The notes under the pieces: model-generated
Databases searched by the model: none
Seen by the model: only the letters and a program-made list of their open reading frames with translations
What the model was told of the DNA's origin: nothing
IMG/VR virus record: IMGVR_UViG_3300013093_000194
Coordinates: 1-29,054 of that record
Source: a virus
DNA length: 29,054 bases
Strand: one strand, 5' to 3'
Part shown: one piece after another, positions 3,794 to 11,012 of the stretch
Layout: each line of letters begins with the position of its first letter
Position numbering within the stretch: position 1 is the stretch's first letter
Position numbers and translations under genes: made by a program

Positions 3794-4447
3794 ATGAACT
3801 TTACATGGTCATTCTCCTCTCTCAAAGATTATATTAACTGTCCTAAGCAGTATCAGGAAGTTAAGGTTCTTAAGCGTCACGTCAAGTTTCCGACGGAGCA
3901 AATGCGTTATGGAACGGAAGTGCATAAGGCTTGCGAGGATTACGTTGGTAGAGATATACCTCTTGCAAAGAACTATGAGAGATTTCAAACTACACTCGAT
4001 GTACTACGGGCTATCCCGGGTGTAAAGTATCCTGAGCATCAGATGGCACTCTCATCAGCGAAAGAACCATGTGCGTATGGTAAAGGTTATTGGGTACGAG
4101 GGATTGTAGACTTGCTGATTGTAGATGGGGAAAATGCTTTTATTGTCGATTATAAGACTGGCAGTTCAAAATACCCTGACGTAAAACAATTAGCTTTGAT
4201 GGCTCTAATGACGTTCGCTCATTTCCCTGAAGTTAATAATATAAAAGCAGGATTACTTTTTATCGTTAACAATGCGTTCGTTACAGAAGTTTATAGTCGT
4301 GAAGATATTGATAAGTTGTGGAAGATTTTTGATCCCCACCTTGAAAGATTACAGCTTTCATACGAAAATGATGTTTGGCAAGCTAATCCAACCCCGCTGT
4401 GTGGGTGGTGTCCCGTTAAGACTTGCGAATTCCATAAGGAGAGATAA
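3794..4447 (+). CDS. PD-(D/E)XK nuclease, Cas4/RecB-like, Fe-S type
   Basis: A 217-aa exonuclease-type protein. The N-terminal FSSLKDYINCPKQY is the usual entry motif of the RecB/Cas4 group. Catalytic residues are visible as His44 (EVHKAC), Asp106 (RGIVDLL), Asp119-x-Lys121 (VDYKTG) and Gln132 (KQLALMAL). Four cysteines, Cys16 plus Cys203, Cys206 and Cys211 near the C terminus, match the layout that holds a 4Fe-4S cluster in Cas4 and AddB. It probably resects or trims DNA ends during replication or recombination, working with the adjacent helicases and binding protein. There is no clear Shine-Dalgarno before ATG 3794, which follows the previous gene by 14 nt. Confidence 0.88.
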   Translation: MNFTWSFSSLKDYINCPKQYQEVKVLKRHVKFPTEQMRYGTEVHKACEDYVGRDIPLAKNYERFQTTLDVLRAIPGVKYPEHQMALSSAKEPCAYGKGYWVRGIVDLLIVDGENAFIVDYKTGSSKYPDVKQLALMALMTFAHFPEVNNIKAGLLFIVNNAFVTEVYSREDIDKLWKIFDPHLERLQLSYENDVWQANPTPLCGWCPVKTCEFHKER

Positions 4448-6865: not shown

Positions 6866-7711
6866 ATGAGTAATGAATTATTAGATTTAAGCGCATTGGG
6901 AGCATTAACAGTTGCAGGAGAACTTGATGAAGATACACTAGCTGTTGCTGGTGGTAAGCGTGATGGTAATAAACGCATCTCTATCAAGGGTGGTGTATTT
7001 CGTAAATACGCAGGCGGTAAAGAAATCGGTTCTATTGAAGATCGTCACATGAATGTTATCTTCGTTAAGATGGCACATAAGGCATCTCGTATGTATTACG
7101 CATCGGGTTATAAAGAAGGTGAGAAGGTTAGCCCAGCTTGCTGGTCATCTGATTCAGAAGCACCTGACGCAGATGTAAAAAACCCAGTTGCAGTTAGTTG
7201 TCTAAACTGCCCTAACAGTGCTAAAGGTTCTAGCGATAATGGTACGAGCGCAAAATGCAGACTATCATGGAGAACTGCAGTTGTTCTACCGAACGATCCA
7301 GCAGGCGATGTTATGCAGTTAGTTTTACCAGCAACTTCTTCTTTCGGTAAAGAAGATAATGGAAGATGGCCGTTTAGACCGTACATTCAGCACTTAGCGT
7401 CGCACAACGTATCAGCAGGACGTGTGGTAACTAAGATGGCATTTGATACAAAATCTCCTACACCAAAGGTATTGTTTGCTCCAGTAGGTGCTGTACCCGA
7501 AGCTGACTTAGATATAATTGCTCGTCAGTCTAAGAGTGTAGAAGCTGAGAAAGCTATCAAGTTAAACGTGTATCAGATGGATGCACCTGAAGTAGCTACT
7601 TCACCCGAAGTGGATGAAACACCAGAGCCAGTCAAACGTGAGTCAAAAGCTCCTGTCGGTGAGAAGGCTTCTGATATTTCAGACACTATTAAAAAATGGT
7701 CTAAGAAGTAA
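6866..7711 (+). CDS. Putative ssDNA-binding protein with four-cysteine site
   Basis: A 281-aa protein. After a variable N terminus, residues 35-205 look like a beta-rich core (ISIKGGVFRKYAGG, MNVIFVKMA, SWRTAVVLP, VMQLVLP). Cys92, Cys112, Cys115 and Cys131 (ACWSSD, SCLNCPNS, KCRLSW) form a likely zinc site inserted in it. Residues 230-265 are acidic and Pro-rich, like the flexible tails of ssDNA-binding proteins, but the protein ends with a basic helix (DTIKKWSKK). Position in the replication module and a strong AAAAGGAG before the ATG suggest high expression, fitting an ssDNA-coating protein. The assignment rests on pattern and context rather than a named domain. Confidence 0.6.
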   Translation: MSNELLDLSALGALTVAGELDEDTLAVAGGKRDGNKRISIKGGVFRKYAGGKEIGSIEDRHMNVIFVKMAHKASRMYYASGYKEGEKVSPACWSSDSEAPDADVKNPVAVSCLNCPNSAKGSSDNGTSAKCRLSWRTAVVLPNDPAGDVMQLVLPATSSFGKEDNGRWPFRPYIQHLASHNVSAGRVVTKMAFDTKSPTPKVLFAPVGAVPEADLDIIARQSKSVEAEKAIKLNVYQMDAPEVATSPEVDETPEPVKRESKAPVGEKASDISDTIKKWSKK

Positions 7712-7719
7712 GGATAGAA

Positions 7720-8034
7720 ATGCCACGAACATATAGTAAAGAATTTATTAAAGAGTTAGGAACACTGAAACCTTTCGATACCACGGGTATTCAGTTAGCA
7801 AAAGCATGCATTAGGGCAAACATCCCCGCATTGTACGTTGCTACAGCATTAGAAGTTACTCGTATGACAGTTCATAGCTGGTTTCGTGGCAACCCTATTC
7901 GGGATAAGAAGCGACGTATGGTAGCCGTATTTACTGAATTGATTGAGGAGGACTTAGATAATGGAATATTACCAGCTAAAAGCACCGCTCACGCTAGAAA
8001 ATACATAGAGGATATGATCGGTAAAAAGTTTTAA
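7720..8034 (+). CDS. Helix-turn-helix DNA-binding protein, 104 aa
   Basis: A small basic protein with a helix-turn-helix at about residues 37-55 (YVATALEVTRMTVHSWFRG) followed by a basic arm (RDKKRR) and a C-terminal helix rich in acidic and aliphatic residues. It resembles short phage repressor- or Cro-like regulators, or a replication-initiation HTH protein. AAGGA precedes the ATG. Immediately downstream is a perfect 9-bp inverted repeat (8040-8048 with 8103-8111), a possible target for it or a cis-acting RNA structure. Confidence 0.75.
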   Translation: MPRTYSKEFIKELGTLKPFDTTGIQLAKACIRANIPALYVATALEVTRMTVHSWFRGNPIRDKKRRMVAVFTELIEEDLDNGILPAKSTAHARKYIEDMIGKKF

Positions 8035-8039
8035 ACAAC

Positions 8040-8111
8040 GGAGTAGTGACAAAAGATCGGCACACACTAGGGGCTTGTACGAGATTGCAAATTGGATCGT
8101 ACCACTACTCC
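8040..8111 (+). ncRNA. Candidate structured leader RNA or operator (inverted repeats)
   Basis: GGAGTAGTG (8040-8048) is perfectly complementary to CACTACTCC (8103-8111). Directly inside the 3' arm, GTACGA (8077-8082) pairs with TCGTAC (8097-8102), so the two stems would stack. The remaining 28 nt (8049-8076) could form a weak extra helix (AAG/CTT). The 72-nt element begins 6 nt after the HTH stop and is followed by a strong terminator hairpin. It does not fit a tRNA (no T-arm or D-arm). It may be a regulatory leader of the primase-helicase or an operator; the sequence cannot separate these. Confidence 0.45.
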
Positions 8112-8124
8112 ACCCCAATAACCT

Positions 8125-8146
8125 AAGCGGAGCAATCCGCTTTTTT
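8125..8146 (+). terminator. Strong intrinsic terminator/attenuator before the primase-helicase
   Basis: AAGCGGA (8125-8131), GCAA tetraloop, TCCGCTT (8136-8142), then T to 8146: a 7-bp stem with a stable GNRA-type loop and a run of six Ts from 8141. It ends 13 nt before the primase-helicase ATG, so transcripts for that gene must read through it. Confidence 0.75.
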
Positions 8147-8159
8147 AAACCCTGCGCAT

Positions 8160-11012
8160 ATGTTAAAACAATTTTACGAGAAAGCATTGCCATCACAAGG
8201 AGTTTATTGCACTTGCGGTATAGACCCAAAAACAGGTAAAACCACAAACCGATTTGCAGAAACGCTTGAAGATGTATTTAAGAATATTGAATCACTAAAA
8301 ACCAAAGAAGTTAATATATATGTAACACCAGCATCATACGAAGGATGGAGTAGAAAAGCTGATAACTGTGCATTTACTAGAACATTTTTCTTAGACATAG
8401 ACACTCATGGAAAAAATTCTTACGGCACTAAAGAAGAAACAATAAAAGCGGTAAACTATTTAGTAGAAGCTACAGGTTTACCCGAACCAGTTTGTATAGA
8501 CTCAGGTGGTGGCATCCACGCATACTGGATCATGGATAGGGATATACCCTATGAAGAATGGAAACCTCTCGCTGAGAAGTTTAAAACCCTATGCCAAAAA
8601 CATATCATGATAGATCTCAGCGTTACGTCCGACGGCGCAAGGTTGATGAGATGTCCCGACACATTAAATTACAGATACGATCCACCACGTATGGCGGTTG
8701 TGACAAGCAATGCTATACACGTGTACGACCTTGATGAGTTTAAAGATTTCTTAGCGACACAAAACGTAGAGGTCCAGGGCCTAGCAAACGATGTGTTTGC
8801 AAAAGTCAAGAAGGGTTTAGATGAAGATACCCTAGCCATGAAGAAGATGGATAACTTTGAGTGGGACTTTGAGAAGTTAGCTGACCGCTCAGTAGCAGGA
8901 GACGGATGTGAGCAAGTAAAATACTGGGTAGAGAACTTAGAGTCGCTAGGCTACGAGGATTGGTTCTCCAGTATGAACATCGCATACTTTTGCAAAGACG
9001 GCGATAAATGGATACATGAACTATCTAAACCCCATCCCGAATATACATATGAAAGCGTTGAAAAGAAACGTCTCGAATATGAAAAGCTAGGCAAGCCACA
9101 AACCTGCCAGCATTTAGAAAACCAGAACCCAGAACGGTGTAAAGGATGCAAACATTATGGAAAAATCAACACGCCGATCGTACTCGGCAAAACACTTAGA
9201 AAAGCAACAGAAGCAACCCCCATTGAAATTAATACGACGGAATCAGTTCGGGAGACACCGAGTACCGAAACGATTCCAGTCTTCCCAGACTTCTTAAAAC
9301 CTTTTTTCCGTGGTGAGAATGGTGGTGTATATCAAGAGTTACCGCCCACAAAAAGTAAGAAGGGTATTGAGTATCACCAACCTATAGAAATATTACCACA
9401 AGTATTATACCCAACACGTAGACTTTATAGTCCACTTGATGGCGAATGTTTATCAATGGTTTTAGTTCTACCTAATGATGGTAAAAAAGAATTCTTATTA
9501 CCGCTAAAAGCTGTTACTAGTTTAGAAGAATTAAAACGCACACTATCATTTAATCAAGTAGTTCATTCACCAAAGGTGGCTACTAATATTCAAGAATACA
9601 TTATTAGATGGGGTCAATATATGATTTTAATAAGTAAAGCCCAACAGATGCGTATGCAGTTTGGTTGGTCAGAAAGTCGCACTAGTGATAATTGGGATGA
9701 TAGGACTTTTGTTTTTGGTAAGAATGAGGTTATATCAACTACTGAAATTATAGAGTCGCCTGTATCACCATACATCAAACAATTAGCCGAGCATTTTAAA
9801 CCAATCGGCACTTTTGAAAAGTGGAAACAAAGCGCTCTCGAACTTAAAAGACCTGGGCTTGAACTACATGCTTTGATGTGTCTATCAGGATTTGGTTCAC
9901 CACTTATGGAATTCATTAATCAAGGCGGCTTTACGATCGGTTTGTATGGTGGGTCTGGTAATGGTAAAACAGGTGCTATGTATGCAGCAATTAGTACGTT
10001 TGGCAATCCTAAAGCATTGAGCCTTTTTGATACTACAGATAATGCTATGACTCAGCGTTTTGTGACTTTACGTAGTTTAGTGTTTGGGATGGATGAAGTA
10101 ACTAATAAAGATCCAGCAGTTGTATCTCAACTTATTCATAAGATATCGCAGGGTACAGCTAGAATCAGGATGCAAGCTTCAAGTAATGCTGAAAGAGAAC
10201 ATTCACTAGGCGCATCTTTGATTGGTATTCTTACTACTAACGACTCTCTTGAAGGCAAACTTGAGAAGCATAGATCAACACCACATGGTGAACGTGCTAG
10301 ATATGCAGAGCTTTACATAGAGCAACCAGACATTCTTAAAGGTCCTGAAGGTGATGCATTAGGAAGAAAGATATTTGATCCTTTTAGATTTAATTATGGT
10401 CATGCAGGCCCTATGTTTATCAAAGAACTATTCAAGTTTAGTACCAATCAGATTATGGATAAGCTGGAAAAATGGGGTGAGCGTTACACAAATGATACGC
10501 AGAATGATGCATCTTATCGTTACTATAAAAACTTTATAATGTGTACGTTTACTGCCGCTGAGATTGTAGTTGATTCAGGCATCCTTGATTATGATATAGA
10601 ACATATTTATAAGAAGACGATTGATACATTAAATTATATGAAACAAAACGTATCTAAAATTAATGTCACAGACTATTCAGCTATACTTACGGACTTTATT
10701 TATGAAAACATGGGTAACATCTTACGTATTAGAGATGGTAAAGTTGTTGATGAACCCCGTGGTAGGTTAGTTGCAAGGGTATCAACCGATGAGCCTACAC
10801 GTATATCTAAAGAAGTGTTTAAAGATTATTTGAACAAACGCAATTTATCTACTAGGGAATTTGAAAAGGTAATGAAAGAGCAGGGCATACTTATTAAGGT
10901 GGATAGAAAGCATTTGGAAACTGGGTGGAAACCAACTACCAACTCTCAGGCATCTTATGTGTACATTATTAAAAATGATTTTCTAGATGATAAACCCGAA
11001 TCAAATAATTGA
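8160..11012 (+). CDS. Primase-helicase fusion (AEP-like primase, DUF927-like ATPase)
   Basis: A 950-aa replication protein. Residues about 1-200 form an archaeo-eukaryotic-type primase domain, with the metal-binding FFLDID (Asp79, Asp81), GGGIHAYW (His120) and a DGARLMRCPDTLN block (158-170). A zinc-like CQH...C..CKHYG element (Cys316, Cys327, Cys330) links to the second half. Residues about 375-760 are a DUF927-like AAA+/helicase domain: Walker A GGSGNGKT (597-604), Walker B LVFGMDE (Asp645, Glu646), polar sensor LTTND (Asn694) and possible arginine fingers Arg712/Arg714. The C-terminal part is probably a DNA-binding extension. It should both prime and unwind at the phage fork. No Shine-Dalgarno is visible before ATG 8160, but the N-terminal sequence fits the family start. 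The upstream hairpins may control it. Confidence 0.9.
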   Translation: MLKQFYEKALPSQGVYCTCGIDPKTGKTTNRFAETLEDVFKNIESLKTKEVNIYVTPASYEGWSRKADNCAFTRTFFLDIDTHGKNSYGTKEETIKAVNYLVEATGLPEPVCIDSGGGIHAYWIMDRDIPYEEWKPLAEKFKTLCQKHIMIDLSVTSDGARLMRCPDTLNYRYDPPRMAVVTSNAIHVYDLDEFKDFLATQNVEVQGLANDVFAKVKKGLDEDTLAMKKMDNFEWDFEKLADRSVAGDGCEQVKYWVENLESLGYEDWFSSMNIAYFCKDGDKWIHELSKPHPEYTYESVEKKRLEYEKLGKPQTCQHLENQNPERCKGCKHYGKINTPIVLGKTLRKATEATPIEINTTESVRETPSTETIPVFPDFLKPFFRGENGGVYQELPPTKSKKGIEYHQPIEILPQVLYPTRRLYSPLDGECLSMVLVLPNDGKKEFLLPLKAVTSLEELKRTLSFNQVVHSPKVATNIQEYIIRWGQYMILISKAQQMRMQFGWSESRTSDNWDDRTFVFGKNEVISTTEIIESPVSPYIKQLAEHFKPIGTFEKWKQSALELKRPGLELHALMCLSGFGSPLMEFINQGGFTIGLYGGSGNGKTGAMYAAISTFGNPKALSLFDTTDNAMTQRFVTLRSLVFGMDEVTNKDPAVVSQLIHKISQGTARIRMQASSNAEREHSLGASLIGILTTNDSLEGKLEKHRSTPHGERARYAELYIEQPDILKGPEGDALGRKIFDPFRFNYGHAGPMFIKELFKFSTNQIMDKLEKWGERYTNDTQNDASYRYYKNFIMCTFTAAEIVVDSGILDYDIEHIYKKTIDTLNYMKQNVSKINVTDYSAILTDFIYENMGNILRIRDGKVVDEPRGRLVARVSTDEPTRISKEVFKDYLNKRNLSTREFEKVMKEQGILIKVDRKHLETGWKPTTNSQASYVYIIKNDFLDDKPESNN

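Follow-up and report, generated by a model that had tools for sequence, protein, structure and literature searches.

Several described systems come close to the leader that precedes the primase-helicase-like gene of the phage analysed here. Like intrinsic (Rho-independent) phage terminators, it has a GC-rich stem with a GNRA tetraloop and an immediate T-run, set among co-directional genes. Unlike them, its terminator-like hairpin (hairpin 2) lies directly before the start of a single gene that has no Shine-Dalgarno sequence, is kept in nearly all relatives, and is preceded by a second, exchangeable hairpin (hairpin 1) located just after a stop codon. Attenuators and riboswitch expression platforms likewise place a structured RNA and then a terminator hairpin ahead of a gene, yet the present leader has no conserved aptamer and its antiterminator pairing does not exceed chance. 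Among published elements, the STAXI motif of Rfam has the most similar gene neighbourhood (Weinberg et al. 2010, PMC2864571): it is a pseudoknot with UUCG loops, repeated in tandem close to genes whose products bind ssDNA or otherwise handle DNA, and the sarcin-ricin-like hairpins found in relatives lie in surroundings of the same kind. The STAXI covariance model gave no match at gathering score in the window and 16 loci, and none up to E = 10 in positions 7900-8300. Finally, the element of the relatives resembles sarcin-ricin (bulged-G, loop E) modules in having GAA opposite AGTA between two helices, a likeness of sequence, whereas hairpin 1 of the window has Watson-Crick pairs at that place. 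A literature search returned nothing on this leader.

The window, that is, the whole 29-kb IMG/VR virus record, carries a leader of 125 nt between the stop codon of a 104-aa gene and the ATG of the primase gene (Table 1). Its position and the tails of its relatives suggest that the 281-aa gene product further upstream is an ssDNA-binding-type protein. The 104-aa protein, for which Pfam gave no match, is by its sequence probably a helix-turn-helix protein. All three pairs of complementary arms in the leader were recovered independently by repeat search and by folding, and the 9-bp stem enclosing a 6-bp stem, first reported in the initial annotation, proved exact to the base. Two further points of that annotation were confirmed: the structure is not a tRNA (ARAGORN, 0 genes), and the ATG at 8160 lacks a Shine-Dalgarno sequence (0-nt match). 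Folding z-scores were -2.1 for 8035-8159 and -2.3 for 8040-8111, and 1.2% of shuffled leaders contained a perfect 9-bp inverted repeat whose loop measured 3-70 nt (the window contains three in total). Taken alone, these values are modest evidence; they become firm with the comparison of relatives. A terminator scan did not call hairpin 2, probably because the first T's of its T-run were counted as stem. We also note a possible pseudoknot: the GGGG at 8070-8073 within hairpin 1 is complementary to the CCCC at 8113-8116 just downstream of that hairpin.

Table 1. The primase leader and its flanking genes, in coordinates of the window.
Feature	Position	Strand	Description
281-aa gene	6866..7711	+	phrog_27714 (function of phrog unknown)
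104-aa gene	7720..8034	+	stop codon 5 nt upstream of hairpin 1
Hairpin 1	8040..8111	+	9-bp stem 8040-8048/8103-8111 (9/9 complementary) enclosing an internal region
Inner stem of hairpin 1	8077..8102	+	6 bp, 8077-8082/8097-8102 (6/6), abuts the outer stem
Linker	8112..8124	+	ACCCCAATAACCT; ACCCAATAACCN in related relatives
Hairpin 2	8125..8142	+	AAGCGGA-GCAA-TCCGCTT, arms 8125-8131/8136-8142 (7/7), GNRA cap, -9.6 kcal/mol
T-run TTTTTT	8141..8146	+	overlaps the base of the hairpin-2 stem; ends 13 nt short of the ATG (8160)
Spacer without Shine-Dalgarno	8147..8159	+	AAACCCTGCGCAT; AGACTCTGCGCAT or CAACTCTGGCGAGAC in relatives
950-aa primase-helicase-like gene	8160..11012	+	phrog_25314, phrog_8841; DUF927

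Homologous leaders were collected through primase protein similarity and a DNA pattern, which yielded 65 distinct sequences from relatives with primase identities down to 40-47%. RNAalifold on a MAFFT alignment of these leaders gave no structure, because hairpins of differing stem and loop lengths had been misaligned, and hairpins were instead sought in each sequence separately, with shuffled controls. Hairpin 2 (dG <= -7 kcal/mol) was found in 63 of the 65 leaders, as compared with 4 of 65 shuffled ones, and was absent from two relatives (L138 and L141). Its mean dG over all leaders was -12.0, and its spacing is fixed, the hairpin ending 14-20 nt before the ATG. The stems themselves change: there are 26 different ones (for example AAGCGGA/TCCGCTT, AGCCGAG/CTCGGCT, AAAGCGAGG/CCTCGCTTT and GGGCAGAGC/GCTCTGCCC), each followed by a T-run, and as the best perfect hairpin was taken from every sequence, their perfect pairing holds by construction, whereas their position, T-run and frequency relative to shuffles do not. 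Isolates carry comparable structures between the same genes, namely a hairpin GGGGGCTGCAAAGCCCCC after the homologous upstream gene in Rollin and a hairpin GGCGGGC...GCCCGCCTTTAAT before the primase in Rhizobium phage TM3_14A. Hairpin 2 of the window has the short loop, the T-run directly behind and the GC-rich stem (5 bp or more) expected of an intrinsic terminator, and it is a conserved terminator-like element; the original view of it as resembling an intrinsic terminator stands, with compensatory variation among the relatives. The T-run in relatives comprises 3-6 T, and as it is short (4-6 T) in many of them, termination at hairpin 2 may be weak or absent. In two relatives of about 65 kb, with some six terminator-like hairpins each, hairpin 2 is among the weaker ones (-9.6 to -12.3 versus -17 to -21 for those elsewhere).

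Hairpin 1 is conserved in another manner. In the window it starts 5 nt past the stop at 8034 and is followed by ACC at 8112-8114, so that it shares two traits with the sarcin-ricin-like element of relatives described below, a start 5-12 nt after a stop codon and an ACC behind the 3' arm. Of 63 relatives, 54 have a fold of <= -5 kcal/mol between the last upstream stop codon and hairpin 2, mostly starting 1-10 nt after the stop, and in 37 of the 63 the hairpin-1 slot reaches z <= -1.5. Many of the hairpins in this slot are short stems with GCAA, GAAA or UUCG loops, and the 72-nt hairpin of the window is an expanded version. The nearest relative (L001), whose primase is 96% identical, has an extra gene and a different, 13-nt hairpin, with the flanks AAC...ACCCAATAACC kept. 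IMG/VR contained no exact match to a 19-nt piece of the window hairpin, and the phage collection had none to the entire hairpin. Judged by these comparisons, what relatives keep of hairpin 1 is a post-stop hairpin and not its sequence, versions of which are exchanged between close relatives. The extra gene of the nearest relative (L001:3669-3935, 88 aa), which the window does not have, lies between the 104-aa gene and the hairpins, and different genes occupy this place in other relatives. Programmed read-through of the stop or frameshifting after the post-stop hairpin was considered and rejected, as extension lengths scatter and no conserved fusion is seen. In two relatives (L019 and L040) the loop of hairpin 1 carries a GTCGGCTCGGCGAC-GTTAAATAG-like insert reminiscent of pistol ribozymes; a search of L019 against Rfam at gathering score returned no pistol hit.

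In several relatives the hairpin-1 slot holds GGGGGAAAGYG...CRYNAGTACCCCACC, with a sarcin-ricin-like internal loop, and this element is the more unusual result, more so than the window leader itself. The pattern GGGGGAAAGYG...NAGTACCCCACC occurs in at least 119 viral contigs, frequently downstream of genes for ssDNA binding or recombination; the scan of IMG/VR gave at least 120 stretches and at least 119 new loci (the element loci are L148-L266 and L273-L295, for example L160, where it follows a 290-aa gene, L162 and L187). The same pattern had two matches in 257 Gb of bacterial and archaeal genomes, about what chance would give by our estimate. In an alignment of 33 variants GAA and AGTA are invariant, as in sarcin-ricin modules, and helix 2, the 3' side of which was left free by the pattern search, has 96.7% paired cells with changes on both sides and frequent G-U pairs; its pair 9-52 is G-U in 19 variants and G-C in 11. 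A scan of the outer stem with the fourth base fixed as C and its partner free returned G in 22 of 23 cases, or 7 of 8 distinct elements. Both helices of the predicted fold show compensatory changes. Of the initial proposal of a new structured RNA, the part that concerned hairpin 1 of the window as a family fell away, for it matched nothing; relatives do carry an element in the same slot for which Rfam 15 gave nothing credible at gathering score or at E <= 10.

A model of the element matched 17 of 32 records, with one copy in 14 and two copies in 3; the matching records had mostly been picked for carrying it, and these figures speak of copy number and not of prevalence. Half of the sites (86/171) start 5-12 nt after the stop of an ORF. 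The preceding genes include those for an Erf-like annealing protein, a Gp2.5/Enc34-type ssDNA-binding protein and small SSBs with DDIPF-type tails, and further for an exonuclease, a ParB-like protein and unknowns. In the window, element model R1 found nothing at E <= 0.05 and the GAA(A)/NAGTA internal loop is absent from hairpin 1; the element is therefore context for the window and not its identity. Some variants depart from the simple arrangement: in three loci (L280, L282 and L295) a nuclease-like gene is followed by a tandem pair of ACC-tailed hairpins and these immediately by a tRNA-Asn gene, and in two others (L281 and L284) a longer version, GAAGCC-AAAAGCG...GCGAGTA-GGCTTC-ACC, precedes a short GGGC/GCCC element after an SSB gene. 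Two element-bearing contigs also contain the Rfam Betaproteobacteria-1 RNA (RF02932; L168:1862-1983, minus strand, 107 bits, and L199:942-1064, plus strand, 91 bits), which may hint at the host group. A wider proposal, which we regard as possible though doubtful, is that the hairpin-1 slot houses an undescribed class of cis-acting phage RNA. Its members would be post-stop hairpins that bear a sarcin-ricin-like module and have ACC as a tail. They would stand next to ssDNA-binding and recombination genes of unrelated families, in most cases as a single copy per genome, and a host or phage factor governing the levels of replication proteins would recognise them; in the window member the module would have been replaced by another structure.

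At the start of the primase gene, the absence of a Shine-Dalgarno sequence is conserved, with no 4-nt match at 59 of the 63 primase starts tested and a 4-nt match at the other 4; the window genes starting at 4447, 4888, 6447, 6866 and 7720 have matches of 5-7 nt. By the usual Shine-Dalgarno measure the primase start is a weak one. The bases around it are strongly conserved among relatives, and codons 3, 4, 7, 8 and 9 are nearly fixed as AAA, CAA, GAG, AAA and GCA (window 8160-8210 and homologues). The idea of a translational operator, or of a DNA element lying across the start codon, was nevertheless mostly set aside, since neighbouring genes are comparably constrained: start-proximal constraint is 0.25-0.38 in the control genes (the ssDNA-binding-like, 104-aa and 130-aa genes) versus 0.31 in the primase. 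An antisense ORF over the primase start is open in 63 of 65 leaders, but its length scatters between 9 and 59 codons and it is not credible.

The explanation that we prefer, and hold to be reasonably probable though far from certain, is that the leader is a dosage-setting intercistronic region in which a hairpin, a leaky intrinsic terminator and a weak start together lower the primase relative to the upstream genes. The upstream replication genes and the primase would be co-transcribed, and the polymerase would pass hairpin 1 just past the stop codon. What most likely follows in vivo is termination of part of the transcripts at hairpin 2 and its T-run, which would act as an intrinsic terminator of moderate strength, and read-through by the remaining fraction. 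Hairpin 1, together with the terminator hairpin, would most likely protect the 3' ends of the terminated mRNAs, and the read-through transcripts would encode the primase, with weak translation from a start region that is rich in U, unstructured and without a Shine-Dalgarno sequence. Termination and the weak start would both hold the primase-helicase at what is most likely a low level relative to the preceding genes.

Hairpin 2 might instead be a full terminator of the upstream operon, in which case the primase would have a promoter of its own, located in the leader or in the gene before it. Phage promoters need not resemble the sigma-70 consensus, and the start-proximal bases are well conserved. 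Yet no sigma-70-like site was found on the plus strand in 7240-8580, the 17 nt between the hairpin-2 stem and the ATG are too few to hold a promoter after the terminator, and the part of the leader in front of it varies. The spacer sequence, tried as a phage promoter motif, occurs once per genome where found and is not a repeated promoter. An unrecognised promoter could lie upstream of the leader or overlap it; a separate promoter for the primase seems to us unlikely. On account of the short gap, the missing nearby sigma-70-like site and the unrepeated spacer, the primase is likely expressible only by read-through. Less probable still is a regulated attenuator or riboswitch, in which hairpin 1 would sense a signal and refolding would decide whether hairpin 2 forms; the initial annotation had spoken of regulated folding and an attenuator. 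An elaborate hairpin right before a terminator does resemble an aptamer with its expression platform. However, folding in full context gives hairpin 2 a mean pair probability of 0.935, and the 5' arm of this hairpin, once the 3' arm is removed, pairs upstream no better than in shuffled sequences (0.493 versus 0.513; above the control in 31 of 63), so a conserved antiterminator is not supported; no mutually exclusive antiterminator pairing rose above the shuffled level in the 63 leaders. Nor was there a conserved aptamer or sensor, as hairpin 1 varies completely among relatives, its sequence is not kept even at 96% primase identity, and many relatives have a plain tetraloop hairpin in its place. 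The Rfam search suggested at the outset left the window leader without a match, with nothing credible in the window at gathering score or in 7900-8300 at E <= 10.

It could also be argued that the terminated product of hairpins 1 and 2 is a small phage RNA acting in trans and that the terminator exists to make it. Hairpin, linker and terminator together have the usual shape of a small RNA, and in relatives the hairpin-1 slot contains a sarcin-ricin-like module that is conserved. But hairpin 1 is wholly different between near-identical phages, the window version is without a match in the collections searched, and no promoter is evident; we consider this reading improbable, to about the same degree as a separate primase promoter. 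An element that acts as DNA, such as a single-strand hairpin near the replication genes serving as an origin or priming signal, is less probable again, if not quite so remote as the attenuator. It would fit the roughly one sarcin-ricin-like copy per carrying genome, beside replication genes, yet the frequent G-U pairs in helix 2 favour an RNA of the coding strand, and hairpin 2 retains its T-run on that strand.

A model is now at hand to search for a recurrent hairpin that Rfam 15 lacks and that at least 119 viral contigs carry. The dosage-setting leader, for its part, provides a testable case: virulent phages may set the ratio of their replication proteins within one transcript, by means of a conserved weak terminator and a start without a Shine-Dalgarno sequence in place of a separate promoter.
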